The position numbers were made by a program, and so were the translations under genes. A stretch of DNA of 24,192 nt from Burkholderiales bacterium (lineage in GTDB: Bacteria; Pseudomonadota; Gammaproteobacteria; Burkholderiales; Burkholderiaceae). This document shows, piece by piece, positions 15,377 through 23,908 of this stretch (its first letter is position 1; the number at the start of each line of letters is the position of its first letter). The notes beneath the pieces were generated by a model. It had not been told where the DNA came from, searched no databases, and saw only the letters and a list, made by a program, of their open reading frames with translations. The stretch lies in contig CAHJWV010000087.1 of the NCBI GenBank assembly GCA_903643055.1, positions 1 through 24,192 on the forward strand. Direction: 5' to 3'.

Positions 15377-15581
15377 CGGACCAACGACATCGACCTTGTC
15401 GCGCGGCTTCACTGCGAGCACGATATCGAACCTAATCGACACACTCATCGGCTTCGTTATCAAATCCCATCGAGGTAAAGACCTGTGGGAATCCTCCGTC
15501 ATCGAATCGAGCCGAGCGACGATACCCACCCGGGCACGGCCTCATTAGGGTGCATTGATTGCAACCACAACGGAGAATCGA

Positions 15582-16535
15582 ATGACATCGAAGCAGACAC
15601 CGGGGTCGGATCGTCAAGCGCAACACCAGCCCGCCTCGGGCACACCGCGCAAAGCCGGCTTGGCCGATCCCCGCACCGCCTATGCGCGCCCACCTTTTGC
15701 CGAGCAGCAGCAGGAATGGCCGGGCCTCGCCTCGAAGATGGAGCCACGGCCTGACCATGGCGAGACGTCTTATGTCGGCGCGGGCCGGCTTCAGGGCCGC
15801 AAGGCCTTGATAACGGGCGGCGACTCCGGCATTGGCCGTGCGGCCGCCATTGCGTTCGCACGCGAAGGCGCCGATGTGGCCATCGGTTATCTGCCTCAGG
15901 AAGAATCAGACGCGCAGGAAGTGCTCAGCCTGATCCAGGCCGAAGGCCGCATCGCCGTTGCCCTGCCAGGAGACATTCGCAACGAATCCTTCTGCAAGAA
16001 CCTGGTGTCTCAGGCCGCCGAAAGGCTGGGTGGGTTGGACATCCTGGTCAACAACGCGGCCTACCAAAAATCGCGCGAAAGCCTTGCTGATATCTCCACC
16101 GAGCAACTCGATGCCACCTTCAAGACCAATCTGTATGCGCTGTTCTGGATCACCCAGGCCGCGCTGCCACTGTTAAAGCCGGGTGCATCGATCATCAATA
16201 CCGCATCGGTCAATGCCTACGACCCGTCTGAGCATCTGGTCGACTACGCAGTGACCAAAGCGGGCATCGCATCGTTCAGCAAGTCGATGGCTAAACAGTT
16301 GGCCGACAGAGGCATACGCGTCAACGCAGTTGCCCCCGGGCCGTACTGGACGCCCTTGCAACCCAGCGGGGGTCAAGACCCGAAGCGCCTCAAAACCTTT
16401 GGCGAACAAACACCGCTTGGCCGCCCCGGCCAGCCTGCCGAGATCGCCGGCCTGTATGTCTTGTTGGCGTCGAACGAATCCAGCTACTGCAGCGGCGAGG
16501 TTTTCGCAAGCACCGGCGGCACGCCGGCGAATTGA
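15582..16535 (+). CDS. SDR-family NAD(P)-dependent oxidoreductase (YghA-like stress-type)
   Basis: This 317-residue short-chain dehydrogenase/reductase belongs to the extended-N-terminus group typified by YghA and general-stress SDRs. About 65 N-terminal residues (PPFAEQQQEWPGLASKMEP) precede the Rossmann fold. The cofactor motif TGGDSGIG is at 78-85, NNAA at 157-160, the catalytic serine in NTASV is Ser209, and the YxxxK pair is Tyr222/Lys226. PG motifs near the C-terminus are intact. ATG 15582 has CGGAGAA just upstream (15571-15577) and is preferred over a TTG nine codons earlier. The gene is intact although the DNA on both sides is decayed, so it is probably expressed alone. It reduces a carbonyl or oxidises an alcohol; the substrate is unknown. 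Confidence 0.92.
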   Translation: MTSKQTPGSDRQAQHQPASGTPRKAGLADPRTAYARPPFAEQQQEWPGLASKMEPRPDHGETSYVGAGRLQGRKALITGGDSGIGRAAAIAFAREGADVAIGYLPQEESDAQEVLSLIQAEGRIAVALPGDIRNESFCKNLVSQAAERLGGLDILVNNAAYQKSRESLADISTEQLDATFKTNLYALFWITQAALPLLKPGASIINTASVNAYDPSEHLVDYAVTKAGIASFSKSMAKQLADRGIRVNAVAPGPYWTPLQPSGGQDPKRLKTFGEQTPLGRPGQPAEIAGLYVLLASNESSYCSGEVFASTGGTPAN

Positions 16536-16922
16536 CATGAGTATCTGAAGTCGCCATGGCCGGGGATTATTTGCCGGCTGTGCCGATGACGTTTGCGTCA
16601 TGACTAATGGCGCCATGTATCGCCTCGTTCTAGAACATCACCGACCGTGCGCTGACTGCCGAATCCCACAATGCCAGATACGCCGCGCCGCCACCCACCA
16701 TCGGGGCTTGGAATGCCCGTCACCGCAAGGAAATTCGTCGCGCCCTGAGCGCCGAAGATGCACCATCCCCGCTCGAGGCTGACCTCGGTGTCCGATCCCT
16801 TGGGTGCGATGCCGAACTCGAATTCGTTCGCTATTCGAAAGATTAGCAGTTGGTGATCAACACCAGCACGACCATCGTCGCTTTCTTGATGGATTTCCTG
16901 ATCCAGCAAAGCAAAAAGCCAG
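16536..16922. other. Gene-free stretch after the SDR gene
   Basis: A 101-codon minus-strand frame (16604-16909) shows no recognisable family and no clear ribosome site, so I do not call it. A weak GC-rich inverted repeat near 16560-16580 (GCCGG...CCGGC) could be a terminator for the SDR gene but lacks a T-run. Confidence 0.45.
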
Positions 16923-17141
16923 ATGATGGACTTCTGGCAACTACTTCAGTGGCCCGCGATAGCGGTGACCTTGGTGGCACCCCAAAGTGAACGCGCTCCT
17001 GCTTGGGGCTTTTGGATATTCCTCGCAAGCAACGTCTTGTCGATCGCGTGGGGATGGCACTCGCAAGCGTGGGCACTGGTCGCGATGCAATTCAAGCTTG
17101 CGGCGATGATTGCTCGCGGCGCAGCGAAGAATGATGGCTGA
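16923..17141 (+). CDS. Small two-helix membrane protein
   Basis: This 72-residue inner-membrane protein resembles a conserved group of 70-80-residue proteins of unknown role. Two hydrophobic helices are evident: FWQLLQWPAIAVTLVA (residues 4-19) and WGFWIFLASNVLSIAWGW (28-45). A third amphipathic or membrane helix, WALVAMQFKLAAMIARGAAK, follows to the end. The WGFW...SNVLSIAWGWH pattern is the recognisable part. The segment between helices 1 and 2 (PQSERAPA) looks shorter than I expect for the family, so a small internal deletion is possible. Start is ATG 16923 or 16926; the Shine-Dalgarno is weak. It lies head-on to a DUF72 pseudogene that breaks off only about 14 bp beyond its stop. Confidence 0.6.
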   Translation: MMDFWQLLQWPAIAVTLVAPQSERAPAWGFWIFLASNVLSIAWGWHSQAWALVAMQFKLAAMIARGAAKNDG

Positions 17142-17154
17142 CGCTTTATTGCCC

Positions 17155-17505
17155 AAAGGCCACCGGCCTTCGCAAGAAATTTCTTCAACGGTTCGCGTGC
17201 ACCTTGCAGCGTACTTTCATCGTTGATGGCCTTCGGAAGCTTCACCGCGAAGCGGAAGCCTCGGGTGTGCTGCGTGCCTATCGCTAATAACCCTGACGCG
17301 GATGCGGGCGGTAAAACGAAGAATTCATCTCAACGCAATCCATCTCGATGGCATAGCGTTCGAGGTGAATTCCTTCCGTTGCAAAGTGGGCCGCATTCGA
17401 ACCGGGAATCGACCAGCCTTCCGTGCCGATGAACGAGCCCATTGAAGCGCTTGATAGAGCGACGGGAGCCGCCGGGCGCGAATGCGCCCTTGTGCCGGCG
17501 CTCAT
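17155..17505 (-). pseudogene. Broken DUF72 (YecE-like) gene, N-terminal part only
   Basis: The start ATG 17505 overlaps the stop of the small upstream gene as ATGA. The protein begins as a normal DUF72 protein: GTEGWSIPGSN, HLERYAIEMDCVEMNSSFYR, PHPRQGY. The family continues with YERWA, but here TAG (17284-17286) stands where GAG (Glu) is expected and TAG (17278-17280) where TGG (Trp) is expected. A single base is missing near 17258, after which the frame shifts to FRFAVKLPKAINDESTLQGA and EPLKKFLAKAGGLW. Homology stops at about 17155, so roughly the last 60% of the usual 250-300 residues is gone. Two nonsense codons, a frameshift and a truncation make loss of function certain. Confidence 0.88.
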
Positions 17506-17714
17506 GACTTCTCGATCTTCTGCGGGCTCTTTGGGGCCGTCGGGATCGTCTGACGCTTGTTGCCCGCAGGCTCTGCCTTGGTAGCGGCATCATGCGGGCT
17601 TGACGGCTTGCTGGGCAACTCGGCAGGCGTAGCGCCGTCTGGGTTTGCCGATGTCTTGGGGCCGCTCAGAGAATCATGGCTACCGGGGGAATGAACACTG
17701 CGCCGGGTCGGCAT
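17502..17714 (-). CDS. Small disordered protein upstream of the DUF72 pseudogene
   Basis: This 70-residue protein is rich in Pro, Ser, Lys and Ala with no hydrophobic core (PTRRSVHSPGSHDSLSGP, then ANPDGATPAELPSKPSSPHD, ending SPQKIEKS). It is presumably disordered. ATG 17714 has AAAGGA five to ten bases upstream, and the stop overlaps the DUF72 start as ATGA, as in a real operon. I do not recognise a named family. Its role is unknown; linkage to SDR, DUF72 and alcohol dehydrogenase genes suggests a stress-related locus. It may be a relic now that its partner gene is dead. Confidence 0.55.
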   Translation of the reverse strand: MPTRRSVHSPGSHDSLSGPKTSANPDGATPAELPSKPSSPHDAATKAEPAGNKRQTIPTAPKSPQKIEKS

Positions 17715-17764
17715 GTTCGATCCTTTCGTTACTGACGTTCAACTTAGGTAATCTTCAGATCCCA

Positions 17765-18115
17765 TCAACGGGTCAGATGAGACTGCACTTGGGGAGGAAC
17801 TTGGGGAGGCGCATGCGTCTGGGCGTTGGCGCGCTCGTTCGTCGTCTGTGTCTTGGAGGTGTTTACCTCGTGGCGATGCTGGCTGCCGGTCGGGTCTGCG
17901 ATCTGCATTGGCTGACCATCGCTCCAGCCATCGGCACCCGGGTCAATCAGCGGGGCGATCAGGTCTTGGCGATCGGCTTTCTTGCGCGCGCTTTGGATGG
18001 CGAAGCGCCGGTCACGGGCGGTCACCATCGGGAGGTCGGCCTGCCCGTCTGCCGTAAATCCCATCATCAGCTGTGGCACGCCGAGCGGCAGCGTTTGGTC
18101 CAGGTCGGTGTGCCA
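17765..18115 (-). other. Open frame that could be the tail of a broken gene
   Basis: On the minus strand a frame begins exactly where the alcohol dehydrogenase similarity stops. It reads protein-like ([18 protein letters not shown], then [34 protein letters not shown]) before turning into low-complexity sequence and a stop at 17765. It has no start of its own and no family I recognise. It may be the C-terminal end of a second gene joined to the dehydrogenase fragment by deletion, or a chance open frame. The opposite strand is also open across most of it. Confidence 0.3.
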
Positions 18116-18245
18116 CGTGCAGATCGGAGCCGCAGATGGCGGTTGCCGTCACGCGCAGGATGATGTCGTCATTCTGCGTGATCACCGGGTCGGGCACGGT
18201 GGCCACCCGCACGTCCTTGGAGCCGTGGTAGGTCAATGCTCTCAT
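18112..18245 (-). pseudogene. Zinc-dependent alcohol dehydrogenase, N-terminal fragment
   Basis: From ATG 18245 the frame reads [20 protein letters not shown], then [19 protein letters not shown]. This is the N-terminus of a zinc-dependent (glutathione-independent formaldehyde/threonine-type) alcohol dehydrogenase, including the catalytic zinc-binding cysteine in CGSDLH. Full proteins have about 380-400 residues and continue with GHEFMG. Here similarity ends after about 44 residues and the frame closes at 18012. The remainder has been deleted or replaced. The fragment cannot fold or act. Confidence 0.82.
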
Positions 18246-18313
18246 GCAGAACTTCTGGGGAAGGTCATCAATGGGCGCGGGCGTCCGCTGAAATCACGCG
18301 TCGGCAACGTGAG

Positions 18314-18835
18314 TCAATTCGTCGCTTTCGCCACCTTCGCGCGCAGCGCCTGGGCCATCTCGAGGTGGCGTTTCAAGCCGGGCAAAGTCTTTTGGGCCCA
18401 GGCTTTGACGTCCAGATCTTTGGCGTCTTTCGAAGCTTCTTCGAAGAGCTTGATGGTGTCTTCATGGGCCTTCACGCCAAAGGTCTCCAAGTACCTGGCA
18501 TCGAACTGATCGTCGCTGCCCGCGTTCAGTGCTTTCAACTCGGTCTTTTGTTTCGATGTGGGCTCGGCAGGCAAGTCGACATGCTTGGCGCCCGCCAGTG
18601 ACTTGAGTTCATCGGCCACTTTTGTATGCTCGGTGAGCATGGTCTGGGCGAAGATTTTCACCTCATGCGCTTTCGCCTTGGTGGCAGCCAGCTTCGCCGC
18701 ATTGATTTCGGTGATTCCCGCAGTGGCTGCGTCTTTCATGAAGTCCGCATCGGAACGCGCCTGGGCGTTAAGGGACAAGGCGCTCAGCGCCAGCGGCAGC
18801 AGGGCAAGGGAGATAAGCGACAGGGAACGGTTCAT
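18314..18835 (-). CDS. DUF4142 domain secreted protein
   Basis: This 173-residue protein has a signal peptide (MNRSLSLISLALLPLALSALSLNAQA, cleavage near AQA-RS) and one DUF4142 domain, a ferritin-like helical bundle. Hallmarks are DADFMKDAATAGITEINAAK, VKIFAQTMLTEHTKVADELK, FDARYLETFGVKAHEDTIKL and the C-terminal AQKTLPGLKRHLEMAQAL. ATG 18835 has AAAGGAAA upstream; the frame extends further but without support. DUF4142 proteins are periplasmic or outer-membrane associated and often found in stress loci; their biochemical role is not settled. It is divergent from the PQQ-type dehydrogenase fusion, with a shared 289-bp intergenic region, so co-regulation is possible. Confidence 0.9.
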   Translation of the reverse strand: MNRSLSLISLALLPLALSALSLNAQARSDADFMKDAATAGITEINAAKLAATKAKAHEVKIFAQTMLTEHTKVADELKSLAGAKHVDLPAEPTSKQKTELKALNAGSDDQFDARYLETFGVKAHEDTIKLFEEASKDAKDLDVKAWAQKTLPGLKRHLEMAQALRAKVAKATN

Positions 18836-19124
18836 GGGATTTCCTTTCGTCAATTCAGCAAAGGGTGAATCAAAACCGCCGTCGGCTGCTTGAATAGACA
18901 AGTGCGGGGTGAAGACGTGCAAGCAAGGGCGTGCCGGCCACTGTAGGAAGCTGACCCACATGCGAATGTCAGCCGACACCTAACGTTTCGGAGGAGGGTA
19001 TGGCGCGCACGGCCTGCGTTGAACTCCGACAAACGCATCAGACAAAACCTACAAGGGCCGCTGAAGCGGCTTTCTACCATGCCGCTCTCGTGTGGCCCGT
19101 GCCTCACCTCATTGGAAGGAACCC
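18836..19124. promoter_or_regulatory. Divergent intergenic region, promoters for the DUF4142 and dehydrogenase-fusion genes
   Basis: These 289 bp separate two divergent exported-protein genes and so should contain both promoters. I see ribosome sites at both ends (AAAGGAAA on the minus strand, GGAAGGA at 19114-19120 on the plus strand). I see no -35/-10 pair or operator strong enough to name. Confidence 0.45.
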
Positions 19125-20936
19125 ATGAAGACACCATCGGTCTTGGCTCTATTGATCGTTGCTACCACGTCGGTCACGTTGGCCCATGCCCAACAGGGCG
19201 ACGGCACCCGCGCCTCGGCAACTGTGCACACCTTCAAGCCCGCCAAGGTGGCCGCCACCCCGGCCCGTGTCTCTCAGTTGAAGGCGCCTGCCGGCTTCAC
19301 CGTGTCTGTTTTTGCAGATGAATTGAAGAACGCCCGGATCATTGCCATCGGACCTCAAAACAGGGTTTATGTCAGCCGGCGCGAGCAAGGCGATGTCGTC
19401 TTGCTGCAAGACGCCAATGGCGATGGCCGCGCCGATGCGCCGCCCGAAGTGGTGGCCAATCGTTCAGGCGCCCATGGCATCGCCGTGCATGACGGCAAGT
19501 TCTACCTCGTCACCGTCAAGCAGTTGTTCGCAGCCGATGTGCAGCCTGACGGCCACCTGGGGCCATTGAAGATGCTGATCAGCGATCTGCCCGATGGCGG
19601 CCAGCATGCCAACCGTACCCTCGCCTTTGGCCCGGACGGCATGATTTATCTCAGCGTGGGCTCGACCTGCAATGCCTGCAATGAAGACAACCCGGAGAGC
19701 GCAACGCTGCTGCGCATTTCGCCGGATGGCAAGCACCGCAGCATCTTCGCCACCGGCTTGCGCAACACGATCGGCTTTGACTGGTACCCGGTCACCGGCG
19801 AGCTGTGGGGCATGGACCATGGCATCGACTTTTTGGGCAACGATATCCAACCTGAAGAGTTGAACAAGCTGGAGCGGGGCAAGCGCTACGGTTGGCCGCA
19901 CATCTGGGGCGCCGATGGCATCAACCCGCAATCCACACCGCCCGGCGAGATCAGCAAGGCGCAATGGAAGGCCTTGAGCACGCCGATGGTGCTGGGCTAC
20001 ACCGCGCATGCGGCGCCAATGCAGATGCTGTTCTATCGCGGCAGCTCATTTCCATCGGATTACGTCAACGATGCGTTCGTCACGATGCGCGGCTCGTGGA
20101 ACCGAGAGCCGGCGTCGGGCTACGAGATCGTTCGGGTCCGCTACACGAATGGCAAGCCGGTCGCATTCGAGCCCTTCGTCACTGGCTTCCTGACCGATGA
20201 CGGAACCACCCACATCGCCCGGCCGGTCGGCCTGGCAGCGACGGCCGATGGGTCCTTGCTGATGGCCGACGATGCCAATGGCGTGATCTACCGCGTGGCG
20301 TACACGGATCCTGCTCCGCGCGCCAATGACACAGTGAGCGCGCCACCGCGCCGCGATGCACCGGCCGGCCCGATGAAGGCGCAGGCTGAAAAGGGATCGG
20401 GCGTGCCGCTGGCGATGGAGCGCAGTGACACAGAAGCGAAAACAGAAGCGAAAGCCAGCCTGCGCGTGGCCTCAGCGAATTTCGCGCCCGACACCCTGCT
20501 CGACAAGCGACACAGCGAATATGCCGACGGCGTGTCGCCTTCGTTGACCTGGTCGACCGTTGCTGGCGCGAAGTCCTATGTGTTGATCGTCGAAGACCCG
20601 GACTCGCGGCCCGTCACGCCCTTCGTGCACTGGCTGGCCTGGAACATTCCGCAGACCTTTGTGCCTGAAGGCTTGCAAAAGACACAACGCCTGACGCTGC
20701 CTGAAGGTTTTCTGCAAGGCAAGAACAGCGCGGGATCGACTGGCTACACCGGGCCGAAGCCGCCCGTGGGCGACCCGCCGCATCACTACCACTTCCAGGT
20801 GTTTGCGATCGACAGCCTGTTGAGCGTGCCCCCCGGTGCCGACCGCGACGAGGTGCTTGCCGCGATGCGCGGCCATGTGCTGGCCAAGGGCGAATTGGTC
20901 GGGCTGTATCAGCAGTTGCAGGAGCCGCTGAAATAG
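19125..20936 (+). CDS. Exported fusion: PQQ-dependent sugar (sorbosone-type) dehydrogenase + YbhB/YbcL (PEBP) domain
   Basis: This 603-residue protein has a signal peptide (MKTPSVLALLIVATTSVTLAHAQ). The first domain (about 50-395) is a six-bladed propeller of the soluble glucose/sorbosone dehydrogenase class: GFTVSVFADELKNARIIAIG, VANRSGAHGIAVHDGKFYLV, VGSTCNACNEDNPESATLLR, TGLRNTIGFDWYPVTGELWG and ERGKRYGWPHIWG. A charged, low-complexity linker (about 400-447) leads to a complete phosphatidylethanolamine-binding domain (448-600) with IVEDPDSRPVTPFVHWLAWN and the ligand-site segment GYTGPKPPVGDPPHHYHFQV. ATG 19125 has GGAAGGA upstream. The dehydrogenase part should oxidise an aldose or aldehyde in the periplasm with PQQ. 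The role of the PEBP part is unknown. These two domains are usually separate proteins. Confidence 0.9.
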   Translation: MKTPSVLALLIVATTSVTLAHAQQGDGTRASATVHTFKPAKVAATPARVSQLKAPAGFTVSVFADELKNARIIAIGPQNRVYVSRREQGDVVLLQDANGDGRADAPPEVVANRSGAHGIAVHDGKFYLVTVKQLFAADVQPDGHLGPLKMLISDLPDGGQHANRTLAFGPDGMIYLSVGSTCNACNEDNPESATLLRISPDGKHRSIFATGLRNTIGFDWYPVTGELWGMDHGIDFLGNDIQPEELNKLERGKRYGWPHIWGADGINPQSTPPGEISKAQWKALSTPMVLGYTAHAAPMQMLFYRGSSFPSDYVNDAFVTMRGSWNREPASGYEIVRVRYTNGKPVAFEPFVTGFLTDDGTTHIARPVGLAATADGSLLMADDANGVIYRVAYTDPAPRANDTVSAPPRRDAPAGPMKAQAEKGSGVPLAMERSDTEAKTEAKASLRVASANFAPDTLLDKRHSEYADGVSPSLTWSTVAGAKSYVLIVEDPDSRPVTPFVHWLAWNIPQTFVPEGLQKTQRLTLPEGFLQGKNSAGSTGYTGPKPPVGDPPHHYHFQVFAIDSLLSVPPGADRDEVLAAMRGHVLAKGELVGLYQQLQEPLK

Positions 20937-20979: not shown

Positions 20980-21507
20980 TTAGCGCCTGAAACGGAAAGC
21001 GAAGGTGGTTGCACTTTCTTCATCGGACGCCACCTCCACGATTCCGTCGTGAGCTTTGGCAACTGCGCGAACAATGAACAAACTTAATCCGACGCTGCGG
21101 ATAGAGGAACTGTCATCTCCACTGCGCACCATGGGCTCGAAGATCCCGGCTTGTTTATCAGCCGGAATTGGATTTCCGAAGTTGTGCACCGACAGCGAGA
21201 CGTGTTCTTCGCCGACAGCCGATGTGATGGTGACCGCTCGGCCAGCGTCGCCATACGCCATCGCACTTCCAATCAAATTCCCTATCAGCTGCGCCACGCG
21301 ATCAACGGCTGCGGCGACCTGTCCAGAACCAACTTTTTGTTGTTCAAACACGTCTTCGCAAAAGGCGAGTGACAGCTCTTCGATGCCCCCGTCCCCCTGT
21401 CCACCGCTTCGTGTTCTTCCGAACCACCCGTCGACTTGATGAGATAACCGTGGAACGTTGAGCATGTTCCGAGTGGAAGACGTAGCCGAGTTGTCGACAC
21501 AGCTCAA
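20980..21507 (-). pseudogene. Histidine-kinase HATPase domain remnant
   Basis: About the last 110 residues match the ATP-binding domain of a sensor histidine kinase: RVAQLIGNLIGSAMAYGD (N-box), SLSVHNFGNPIPADK (G1 region), VGLSLFIVRAVAKAHDG (G2 region) and a final TTFAFRFRR strand. Key positions are off consensus: the second Asn of the N-box is Ser, and the G2 GLGLGL motif reads VGLSLF. The preceding 60 or so residues do not resemble a dimerisation domain with its H-box, and sensor and membrane parts are absent. It is therefore a degenerate C-terminal fragment, closed by TAA at 20980. A free-standing anti-sigma-like ATPase is a less likely alternative. Confidence 0.65.
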
Positions 21508-21515
21508 GCGTCCGC

Positions 21516-21842
21516 CTAATTGTGAAAATCATCTTCTCGTTGATGCCTGACAGCACCGACGATGACACTTTCTCCAACGATTTCGAAAAGCACGACATAA
21601 CCCGTGCTACCAAACGGAATGATCAACTCGCGCGACCTCGAATTGCCCAGGGAGGCTTTGCGACACGAGTATGGCGACCAAGAGAGCCGCGCGAGTCCAT
21701 CTCGAATCGAGTCCAGCGCCCGCTGCGGCGTTTCCCAGTCTGGAGTTTGGCTCTGCAGCTCGCGCTCAATAGAGAAGTTCTCGAGACGTTGCAGGTCCTC
21801 GAGAGCCTCCTGCAGCACCACAACCTTGAAGACGGGGGTCAC
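21516..21842 (-). CDS. RelE/ParE-family toxin
   Basis: This 108-residue cytoplasmic protein is the toxin of a type II toxin-antitoxin pair. The fold signature is visible: an N-terminal strand and helices (FKVVVLQEALEDLQRLENF), then the late strands SRELIIPFGSTGYVVLFEI and VIVGAVRHQREDDF, typical of ParE-like members of the superfamily. The start is GTG 21842, overlapping the antitoxin stop as GTGA (21839-21842), the usual antitoxin-first translational coupling. Length is normal for the family and the frame is intact. ParE toxins inhibit gyrase and RelE toxins cleave ribosome-bound mRNA; which applies here cannot be told from sequence. It lies next to the decayed kinase gene, a common mobile TA setting. 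Confidence 0.87.
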   Translation of the reverse strand: MTPVFKVVVLQEALEDLQRLENFSIERELQSQTPDWETPQRALDSIRDGLARLSWSPYSCRKASLGNSRSRELIIPFGSTGYVVLFEIVGESVIVGAVRHQREDDFHN

Positions 21843-22123
21843 GAGCCAGCAGGGCGCGATGAACGGCGTTTGGCCGTCTCCAATTTTGCTTGCAGCGAGT
21901 TCATCGCCTCGTCAACCGACAGCCCGCCACCCTCCACCTTCCATCGCGCAATGGCCGCTTCGCCTCGACTGACGAATTCGGACTGTGCACGACGCCAAGC
22001 GGCTGCAGCAACTACAGCCTCTTCGATAAATTCGGTCAGCGACTCGCCTTCGCGCAATACAGCCTCAACCTCAGCACGAACGCGAGGTTCGACGCGAATG
22101 GGTGGAAAGGTGGCAGATCTCAT
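21839..22123 (-). CDS. Ribbon-helix-helix antitoxin (YlcI/YnfO-like)
   Basis: This 94-residue partner of the ParE-type toxin has an N-terminal ribbon-helix-helix (about 1-45): strand ATFPPIRVEP, helix RVRAEVEAVLREG, then ESLTEFIEEAVVAAAAWRRA. A helical C-terminal part (SVDEAMNSLQAKLETAKRR) probably wraps the toxin. ATG 22123 gives the family-like MRSATFPPIRVEP start; the frame is open upstream but without similarity. It probably neutralises the toxin and represses its own promoter; a candidate operator lies 11 bp upstream of the start (22134-22153). The pair looks intact and functional. Confidence 0.83.
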   Translation of the reverse strand: MRSATFPPIRVEPRVRAEVEAVLREGESLTEFIEEAVVAAAAWRRAQSEFVSRGEAAIARWKVEGGGLSVDEAMNSLQAKLETAKRRSSRPAGS

Positions 22124-22133
22124 TGGCTTGGAT

Positions 22134-22153
22134 TGTATAGCAACTGTGATACA
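22134..22153 (-). promoter_or_regulatory. Candidate TA operator/promoter
   Basis: TGTAT and ATACA form an inverted repeat with a 10-base spacer, just upstream of the antitoxin start. On the minus strand the segment includes GCTATACAAT, which contains a TATACA-like -10 hexamer. Binding by the ribbon-helix-helix antitoxin is inference. Confidence 0.35.
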
Positions 22154-22159
22154 TGAGTA

Positions 22160-22616
22160 ACTGGAACTCCTGCCACTGCAGCCGGGGATTTCACGCGAAC
22201 ACGCTGGGACAGTTCCTCGGTACTTCGCCGATCCGCAAGTCCCGCGCATCGATAGGGAGCAGACGCAATGAGTTCTCGTTTCCACCGCCGCGGTTCTTGA
22301 TCACCGAGATGCCTTGGGAATATGTCTTCCCGCTTCGAAGAAACGCAGCAAAAGCACGCTGTCGGACAGATGGCTCACGTTCAAGTCTGGCGTGGCGACC
22401 GAGGCAACGAGGGCAATGTGAGGCCTGACTCGTCAAGAACTCGTCTGTCTCAATTTGCACGTCAAAAGTTTGGATGCTTCGGGATGTCCGCCCTACAGCG
22501 GGCATCCTTCCCTACTGCAGGCCTCTTAAATGCCTACAGCCAATGGCGCTCGTAGATGACTCGGGCGGCAATCTCACCGGGCTAAGTTAACGCCATCACT
22601 TTCTTCTGCCCTCGCC
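22160..22616. other. Gene-free stretch before the N-hydroxylase-like gene
   Basis: No coding sequence with recognisable similarity was found; a 104-codon minus-strand frame has no family I know. A hairpin lies at 22482-22507. The promoter of the downstream two-gene cassette should be at the right end, but the start codon at 22617 has no clear Shine-Dalgarno. Confidence 0.45.
22482..22507. repeat. 10-bp stem-loop
   Basis: GGATGTCCGC and GCGGGCATCC pair over 10 bp with one G-T wobble around a 6-base loop (CCTACA), about 110 bp upstream of the cassette. It could be a terminator insulating the cassette or a protein-binding site. No T-run follows. Confidence 0.4.
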
Positions 22617-23303
22617 ATGCATACGCCTCATTCAATTTCCGTCGATCCGCCTAAAGCACACGCCGCTCAAACAGACTTCATTGACTTTGTGATGGCCCCC
22701 ACGTTTCCCTGCGTCGGTGCTCGATCCGCGGTAAACCGCAAGCGCATGCGGTTTGCGACTCTGCCAGCGCTAGCGGCCACCGACACGGTTCAACCTTTGT
22801 TGACTGCCATCTATGCCTTTCTCGACGAATTCAAAGACCCGGGTATTGATCCGGTGACGTTCATCGCTTCGTTTGATTCGTCCGCAACCAGCGAAGAAGC
22901 ATTCGAACGCGCGATGTGGCAGCAGCTTCAACAACTTCACGAGTCGGATCGAGATCAGTTCGAATGGGACTCAACTGTGAGCTCCGATCCAAACGATCCG
23001 CACTTCTCGTTCAGTTTAGGAGGTCGGGGGATGTTCGTTGTCGGTCTTCATCCCATGGCGTCACGCATCGCTCGACGTGCACCACGGGACACGCTTGTGT
23101 TCAATCTGCATGGCCAGTTTGAGCAACTGCGTAAGACAGGAAAGTACGCAAGCATGCAGAGAGCTATTCGCAACCGAGACATGGCTTTGCAGGGAAGCAT
23201 CAATCCCGTATTGGCCCGTTTTGGAGAGGCCTCGGAAGCTTTACAGTATTCAGGTCGTGCGTCTCCTTCGAAGTGCCCTTTTCACATGGGAGTCAAGACG
23301 TGA
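22617..23303 (+). CDS. YqcI/YcgG-family protein, candidate heme-dependent guanidino N-hydroxylase (GntA/DcsA-like)
   Basis: This 228-residue cytoplasmic protein is of the YqcI/YcgG family. Landmarks are FPCVGARSAVNRKRMRF (30-46), DPNDPHFSFSLGGRGMFVVG (124-143), LHPMASRIARRAP (144-156), VFNLHGQFEQLR (161-172), the RNRD...QGSINPVLARFGE segment and CPF near the end (220-222). Family members include DcsA (arginine N-hydroxylation in D-cycloserine synthesis) and GntA (guanitoxin pathway), heme-dependent N-hydroxylases acting on guanidino groups. The substrate here is unknown. It lacks the high GC of the left-hand genes, which suggests transfer. Its stop overlaps the start of the DUF1989 gene as GTGA, so the two are translated together. 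Family call firm; activity inferred. Confidence 0.85.
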   Translation: MHTPHSISVDPPKAHAAQTDFIDFVMAPTFPCVGARSAVNRKRMRFATLPALAATDTVQPLLTAIYAFLDEFKDPGIDPVTFIASFDSSATSEEAFERAMWQQLQQLHESDRDQFEWDSTVSSDPNDPHFSFSLGGRGMFVVGLHPMASRIARRAPRDTLVFNLHGQFEQLRKTGKYASMQRAIRNRDMALQGSINPVLARFGEASEALQYSGRASPSKCPFHMGVKT

Positions 23304-23908
23304 TCAACGGTCCAGTGCTTTCAGCCGGTCGCATTGCGCCGCAATCTGGAGTTGGCTTCAAGATCCGCAAAGGTGAGGTTTTGCGGGTGATCGATCCCCA
23401 TGGAAAGCAGGTGTCTGACCTATTCGCCTTCAAGGATGGTGATTCGTCCAGCTGGCTTTCCTCCGGTAGATCGATTGACTATGGAAGCAAGATCTACTTC
23501 TCTACGGGGGATGTGCTGTATTCGAATGACAGCCGTCGAATGTTCACGCTGCTGGAAGATACCGTGGGCAGACATGACTTCTTGCTAGCGCCATGTAGTC
23601 AGGAAATGTTTGAAATCCTTTACAAGCATCGGGGCCATCATCCCAGCTGCTTCGAGAACCTGTACAAAAACTTCGCACCGTTCGGAATTCGGCCAGAGCA
23701 AATTGGGACAACCTTCAACATTTTCATGGATGTCGAAGTGTCTGCAGCTGGACAGGTCGAAGTCAAAGCGCCTCGTTCAAAAGCAGGCGACTATCTCGAG
23801 TTGCGCGCGGAAATGGACATGGTTTGTTCATTGACGGCGTGCTCAGCAGAAAACTCCAACAACGGTAGTTTCAAACCCATCGACTACGCGATCATTGGAG
23901 CCACTTAA
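23300..23908 (+). CDS. DUF1989 (urea carboxylase-associated) family protein
   Basis: This 202-residue protein is of the DUF1989 family. The start is GTG 23300, which overlaps the upstream stop as GTGA and has GGGAG about 8 bases before it. An in-frame GTG at 23273 is less likely. Motifs are RIAPQSGVGFKIRKGEVLRV (11-30), DPHGKQVSDLFAF (32-44), GRHDFLLAPCS (90-100), HPSCFENLYKNF (114-125), FNIFMDVEV (139-147), DYLELRAEMDMVCSLTACSA (164-183) and KPIDYAI. The conserved His and Cys residues suggest a metal site. Relatives include the carboxyguanidine deiminase subunits CgdA/CgdB of guanidine degradation. With the N-hydroxylase-like partner, a role on a guanidino or N-hydroxyguanidino compound is plausible but unproven. 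The gene is low in GC for this genome. Confidence 0.85.
   Translation: MINGPVLSAGRIAPQSGVGFKIRKGEVLRVIDPHGKQVSDLFAFKDGDSSSWLSSGRSIDYGSKIYFSTGDVLYSNDSRRMFTLLEDTVGRHDFLLAPCSQEMFEILYKHRGHHPSCFENLYKNFAPFGIRPEQIGTTFNIFMDVEVSAAGQVEVKAPRSKAGDYLELRAEMDMVCSLTACSAENSNNGSFKPIDYAIIGAT

Follow-up and report, generated by a model that had tools for sequence, protein, structure and literature searches.

Two adjacent genes at the end of contig CAHJWV010000087.1 of a Burkholderiales bacterium (GenBank assembly GCA_903643055.1; 24,192 nucleotides, the whole of which is referred to here as the window) probably form one operon for a pathway of two enzymatic steps, a unit present in many bacteria. Gene 1 encodes a YqcI/YcgG protein (PF08892), predicted to be a thiolate-heme N-hydroxylase, and gene 2 a DUF1989 protein (PF09347), predicted to be a zinc enzyme; it is rather likely that the two proteins catalyze successive steps in the turnover of an N-oxygenated guanidino-type compound. 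That the genes are a functional unit is well supported by their conserved order, their presence in the same set of genomes in the draw from one phylum, and their parallel divergence. Both families are known; the pairing and its link to stress are the new part, no earlier description of a YqcI/YcgG-DUF1989 pairing having been found in the literature searches made.

Conservation of the Gene Pair

Scanning genome contigs with an alignment of relatives gave 80 loci for comparison, selected by likeness to the window, adjacency being defined as a DUF1989 gene downstream of YqcI/YcgG, on the same strand and at most 3 kb away; 76 of the 80 show it. Since this set is biased toward window-like copies, even genome draws were searched with the general Pfam YqcI/YcgG model. 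In Pseudomonadota, 22 of 398 genomes hold the family, in 24 copies, 22 of which are accompanied by DUF1989, and the genomes of the two unpaired copies (L104 and the divergent L084) hold a paired copy too. All seven copies from the 7 matching genomes of 247 Bacteroidota are paired, and in Actinomycetota, where 13 of 396 genomes matched, six of the 10 copies above the cut-off are paired. The initial annotation had proposed a search for this adjacency in other genomes, and the coupling that emerges is far stronger than it could have known. YqcI/YcgG comes first in all 111 measured pairs, and at least eight phyla contain a paired locus (Pseudomonadota, Bacteroidota, Actinomycetota, Nitrospirota, Planctomycetota, Acidobacteriota, Gemmatimonadota, and Deinococcota).

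Co-occurrence and divergence point in the same direction. A profile of the pair-type DUF1989, run on the 398 Pseudomonadota genomes, matches 22 genomes at 288-340 bits, with the next at 157, and these are the identical 22 genomes that hold YqcI/YcgG (hypergeometric 1.3e-36, a value too small owing to the kinship of the genomes). In the 111 pairs, distances among the YqcI/YcgG proteins track those among their DUF1989 partners (matrix correlation r 0.83, maximum 0.13 in 500 permutations), and on the gene 1 tree the paired/unpaired label requires 5 changes versus 12.6 with shuffled labels, the 13 unpaired rows taking in three divergent copies and a four-sequence actinomycete group. For two of the unpaired likeness-selected copies (L038 and L050), the genome holds a pair-type DUF1989 at another place (236 and 319 bits, respectively); in the former, a Tetrasphaera genome (G405), about 164 kb separate YqcI/YcgG from the pair-type DUF1989 (L038 and L145). 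In one assembly, a Nitrospira metagenome-assembled genome, both families occur in a single uninterrupted frame (L024:9773-11218); the genes are separate in the Nitrospira loci L022 and L025. Bacillus subtilis, the sole one of 14 control genomes holding both families, carries them as ycgG (YqcI/YcgG) and ycgI, with another gene, ycgH, between them.

Some loci depart from the usual arrangement. Three Flavobacteriaceae loci (L027:10808-11419, L042:10634-11254, and L026:10632-11072) have another frame in the intervening 464-779 bases, and family tallies suggest that it is of the FMN_bind_2 type in L027 and L042 and of the MgtC type in L026. In L018:10303-11320 (Xenophilus sp. L33), DUF1989 is broken over different frames, a pseudogene or an assembly error.

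The Pair in the Window

Both genes reported in the initial annotation are intact and matched by Pfam, gene 1 over the entire YqcI_YcgG profile (190 bits, cut-off 27) and gene 2 in the DUF1989 profile (181.5 bits, cut-off 27) as well as in predicted fold; the top-scoring other proteins share 65% identity with gene 1 and 80% with gene 2. The GTGA overlap, in which the start of gene 2 sits on the stop of gene 1, makes translational coupling likely, and the same -4 overlap start is possible in 41 of the 111 measured pairs, the window counted among them. Between the candidate starts GTG 23300 and GTG 23273, the former, 10 residues ahead of the RIxPQSG motif of gene 2, is preferred because nine of 11 aligned relatives start 5-10 residues before this motif.

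The lower GC content noticed earlier also holds, with 0.54 for gene 1 and 0.51 for gene 2, and with GC at third codon positions of 0.56 and 0.58 versus 0.63-0.90 in the eight other measured window genes (0.70-0.90 in the seven non-toxin genes and 0.63 in that for ParE). This is compatible with an origin elsewhere, although it is no proof of one. In the gene 1 tree, the nearest relatives of the window's copy are betaproteobacterial.

Gene 1 and the Known N-Hydroxylases

The YqcI/YcgG enzymes tested so far N-hydroxylate guanidines, according to the available text of PMC12866846 and PMC10849742. In AglA, from argolaphos biosynthesis (PDB 9ub3 and related), Cys44 is described as the axial heme ligand (PMC12866846); it aligns with Cys32 of gene 1, which is unchanged across the 72 rows of an alignment (A3) from which the divergent L084, L105, and L133 were left out. 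With this cysteine and a predicted AglA-like sandwich fold, gene 1 appears to retain the thiolate-heme anatomy of the family, a supported reading in which the heme itself is predicted. The likeness is nevertheless distant (19-21% identity), and AglA differs in requiring an aminomethylphosphonate-linked arginine as substrate and, as far as the accessible part of PMC12866846 goes, in having no mention of a DUF1989 partner.

NCBIfam names gene 1 GntA, as its score against the equivalog model NF041366 is 258.2 bits (cut-off 145), and on this likeness, a comparison made via the model, the pair could belong to a guanitoxin-like natural-product pathway. The model does not discriminate, because all 72 rows of A3, paired and unpaired, match it at E 0.001 or better (a match, not passage of the cut-off). 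Guanitoxin is made by a gntA-gntJ cluster, as outlined in PMC10673588, whereas gene 1 has a DUF1989 partner; among the 25 plasmid records matching gene 1, the nine regions read contain no gene annotated as gntB to gntJ (the window was only partly scanned for them), five of these regions have an adjacent DUF1989 by profile, and the gntA label stands beside "urea carboxylase-associated" genes (three records) or DUF1989 genes. With no conserved third gene found either, this explanation deserves hardly any credence, and since the observed gene neighborhoods do not support a toxin pathway, the name "GntA, guanitoxin biosynthesis" probably misleads in this case. A region of a Rahnella plasmid (L129:6019-11304) offers a different, richer context, an unpaired YqcI/YcgG gene with SDR, 2Fe-2S protein, LysE exporter, PheRS-beta-like, and MOSC genes.

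Gene 2 and the Known DUF1989 Proteins

The substrate of the DUF1989 enzymes with tested activity, in the part of the literature consulted, is either a substituted guanidine, for CgdAB, or an N-oxide, for trimethylamine N-oxide (TMAO) demethylase (Tdm; PMC12560246). In the latter, the zinc ligands are given as C263, C279, and C343 (PMC12560246), and these, together with D198, are matched by C99, C117, C181, and D40 of gene 2, the zinc site being complete in 35 of 35 pair rows. The pair-type DUF1989 proteins form a clade of their own (SH-aLRT 96) with residues of their own (R57, K in some, D60, Y/F61, S182, and A183).

The likeness to Tdm (PDB 9q59) extends across the DUF1989 domain (E 3e-14) and brings up oxidative N-dealkylation, in which gene 2 would rearrange the N-oxygenated product of gene 1 in the manner of Tdm, so that oxygen shifts to carbon and an aldehyde is set free along with the shortened guanidine or amine. 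The retained zinc cysteines and D40 would suit such a reaction, as would the report that Tdm acts on its N-oxide even without O2 (PMC12560246). However, gene 2 reaches 90.7 bits versus a cut-off of 1100 in the Tdm equivalog NF053776, and the proposed iron ligands H276 and D346 of Tdm, which correspond to H114 and E184 in the window, are not both kept: H114 is present in 33 of 35 pair rows, and position 184 varies among E, G, L, Y, F, and P. Moreover, the Tdm model has 763 positions and includes a GcvT-like domain (PMC12560246), whereas gene 2, with 202 aa, lacks the GcvT-type C-terminal domain. N-dealkylation is therefore unlikely, and hydrolysis of a C-N bond is preferred over a demethylase-type rearrangement because conservation is confined to the zinc site. 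Two Asp of the DUF1989 domain distinguish the aligned part of the 9q5a sequence from that of 9q59, and the second of them lines up with Ala183 of the pair family.

The carboxyguanidine deiminase CgdAB (UAAP1/UAAP2), on which the initial annotation had leaned, is a weaker precedent than it stated. It belongs to the same family, and gene 2 shares its zinc cysteines and D40 with one subunit of the tandem pairs, which were assumed to be Cgd in the clade comparison; but gene 2 is a single DUF1989 gene in a separate clade, with other residues at 57, 60, 61, 182, and 183, and scores 113.2 of 284.7 bits and 83.6 of 205.95 bits in TIGR03424 and TIGR03425 (CgdA/CgdB). The view of the two genes as a functional unit is supported, and gene 1 retains the thiolate-heme anatomy of its family and gene 2 the zinc site; a reaction on a guanidino compound, an N-hydroxyguanidine product, and a role as toxin, signal, or NO/HNO source, which that annotation also suggested, would be possibilities. 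Assimilation of guanidine nitrogen, with the pair feeding a carboxyguanidine deiminase or urease, might be read from the name "urea carboxylase-associated" that NCBI gives the partner in the three plasmid records already mentioned; yet 18 of the 22 paired Pseudomonadota genomes have no further DUF1989 and only four a tandem DUF1989 pair, and no guanidine riboswitch was found in the 40 sources scanned, which leaves this route extremely improbable.

Instead of catalyzing a second step, gene 2 might serve gene 1 as a subunit, product gate, or scavenger, the two forming a single enzyme complex. The overlapping genes, the strongly correlated divergence, and the fused frame of L024 would fit this, and CgdAB is cited, in the part of the metformin hydrolase paper available, as an example of a cognate subunit that is inactive. 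The intact zinc site of all pair rows, unlike that of one tandem-pair subunit, makes a purely accessory role quite improbable.

A Stress-Response Promoter Box in Alphaproteobacteria

The EcfG general stress sigma factors of alphaproteobacteria read GGAAC-N16-CGTT (PMC7083833 and PMC3892343, in the parts available), with a slightly looser form of the box in PMC6599016. Upstream of gene 1, with a spacer of 15-18 and at most one mismatch, the box occurs in 26 of 35 alphaproteobacterial loci (8 of 35 exact), versus 3.5 on average, and never more than 7, in 60 shuffling rounds, and in 27 of 37 (shuffled mean 3.8, maximum 10) when two formerly omitted loci are added. In the same loci, its rate is 48/399 in the regions upstream of other open reading frames (ORFs) and 176/1597 in random windows, and the true box pair, with 26, ranks first of 360 permuted pairs, the runner-up (23) likewise containing GGAAC. 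Without the 11 Methylobacterium loci, the box is found in 15 of 24 versus 2.5 expected (maximum 7), and in 13 of 24 versus 0.8 (maximum 4) within 50-130 bases from the profile start, a zone in which 21 of 31 matches have spacer 16; in the even draw it is found in 11 of 21 versus 2.07 (maximum 5). In alphaproteobacteria, the pair thus appears, from these promoter sequences, to be part of the general stress response, a feature of relatives that is invisible from the window alone. In B. subtilis, two lists of sporulation genes in the accessible part of PMC3097244 include ycgG, one of them being SpoIIID-negative.

Proposed Pathway and Its Alternatives

Because the two genes are co-inherited and the known reactions of both families meet in one class of compounds, the pair would be expected to produce an N-hydroxyguanidine and open it afterwards, in a scheme for which we infer the heme, the metal, the substrate, both reactions, and the physiological role. 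In the first step, the YqcI/YcgG protein would bind heme via Cys32 and, drawing electrons from a ferredoxin or reductase of general use in the cell, hydroxylate a small guanidino (or amidino) metabolite at a nitrogen; such a redox partner is plausible because none is conserved beside the pair and AglA worked with spinach ferredoxin and its reductase, the redox system of its assay in the available description. In the second, DUF1989, with zinc on Cys99, Cys117, and Cys181 and Asp40 nearby, would hydrolyze a C-N bond of the hydroxylated product, giving a hydroxyurea- or urea-type compound and ammonia or hydroxylamine; that this step is hydrolytic is put forward tentatively. The stressed cell may benefit by salvaging nitrogen, by ridding itself of a harmful guanidino compound, or by releasing a reactive nitrogen species. 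A bolder version, in which the logic of nitric oxide synthase is split over two small, unrelated, stress-induced proteins, the zinc DUF1989 opening an N-hydroxyguanidine and freeing hydroxylamine, HNO, or NO, is very unlikely.

Several observations weigh against the two-step pathway on a guanidino compound and its role in stress. YqcI/YcgG lacks a nearby DUF1989 in four of the 80 loci (L030, L038, L050, L070) and in two of the 24 Pseudomonadota copies; no DUF1989 was found in G409 (L070) or in the unpaired actinomycetes G606 and G646, none of the pair type in G1054 (L030), and only a tandem pair of another type in G461, although some of these genomes may be incomplete. Since the window has no EcfG box in the 300 bases upstream of gene 1, and betaproteobacterial and Bacteroidota loci show no clear one, a stress role in the window organism is an extrapolation. 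A Trp close to the C terminus, kept in at least 90% of relatives, is missing from gene 1 of the window, and two pocket residues of AglA are changed in gene 1 (Gln177 to N163, Arg179 to H165), which, with the variable position 184 of gene 2, means that the pair may use a substrate other than those known. The pair might, in that case, oxidize and process another amine, amide, or amidine, the guanidine link being a mere family resemblance; the pocket changes, the clade-specific residues of DUF1989, and the lack of a guanidine riboswitch in the 40 sources scanned favor such a substrate, but the family members active in vitro work on guanidines (PMC12866846, PMC10849742, as far as available), and it is considered somewhat unlikely.

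Genomic Surroundings

No amino-acid ligase, nonribosomal peptide synthetase, or transporter was recognized beside the pair among the listed ORFs, the family scan covering 11 window proteins only, and neighbor scans of the relatives' loci found no third gene conserved with the pair, which fits the minimal pathway proposed in the initial annotation. The toxin-antitoxin flank described there holds for ParE, whose identity is confirmed; the antitoxin is merely likely, because the ORF at its expected place (Table 1) has no Pfam match. ParE is left out of the unit, as its family is not common to at least two scanned neighbors of relatives. Beside it, at 20980-21507, lies a fragment of a histidine-kinase ATPase (HATPase_c, in a frame of 175 aa), perhaps a sensor that has been truncated, and further upstream of the pair, at 15555-20936, are SDR, DUF4142, and a glucose/sorbosone dehydrogenase fused to a phosphatidylethanolamine-binding domain. 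SDR, DUF4142, and glucose/sorbosone dehydrogenase-type families are often met as stress genes. On the 3' side of the pair, only the final 284 bases of the 24192-base record follow.

Table 1. Positions of the gene pair, its predicted ligand codons, and the flanking toxin locus in the window
Feature	Position	Strand	Remarks
Gene 1, YqcI/YcgG (PF08892)	22617..23303	+	Predicted thiolate-heme N-hydroxylase, 228 aa; NCBIfam name GntA
Cys32 codon	22710..22712	+	Predicted axial heme ligand in FPCVGARSA; aligns with AglA Cys44
Gene 2, DUF1989 (PF09347)	23300..23908	+	Predicted zinc enzyme, 202 aa (211 aa with GTG 23273)
GTGA overlap	23300..23303	+	Gene 2 start on gene 1 stop
Cys99 codon	23594..23596	+	Predicted zinc ligand (TMAO demethylase C263)
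Cys117 codon	23648..23650	+	Predicted zinc ligand (TMAO demethylase C279)
Cys181 codon	23840..23842	+	Predicted zinc ligand (TMAO demethylase C343)
ParE-type toxin gene	21516..21842	-	PF05016, 31.9 bits; flanks the pair, not counted in the unit
ORF upstream of ParE	21839..22285	-	Expected place of the antitoxin

Implications

The pairing merges two poorly characterized families into a single testable problem, for which the chemistry that we infer appears sound. Should the pathway be real, bacteria of at least eight phyla would have in common an undescribed nitrogen oxidation step, the alphaproteobacterial version of which would be part of the general stress response, and the automatic label "guanitoxin biosynthesis GntA", now carried by many environmental bacteria, would call for change.
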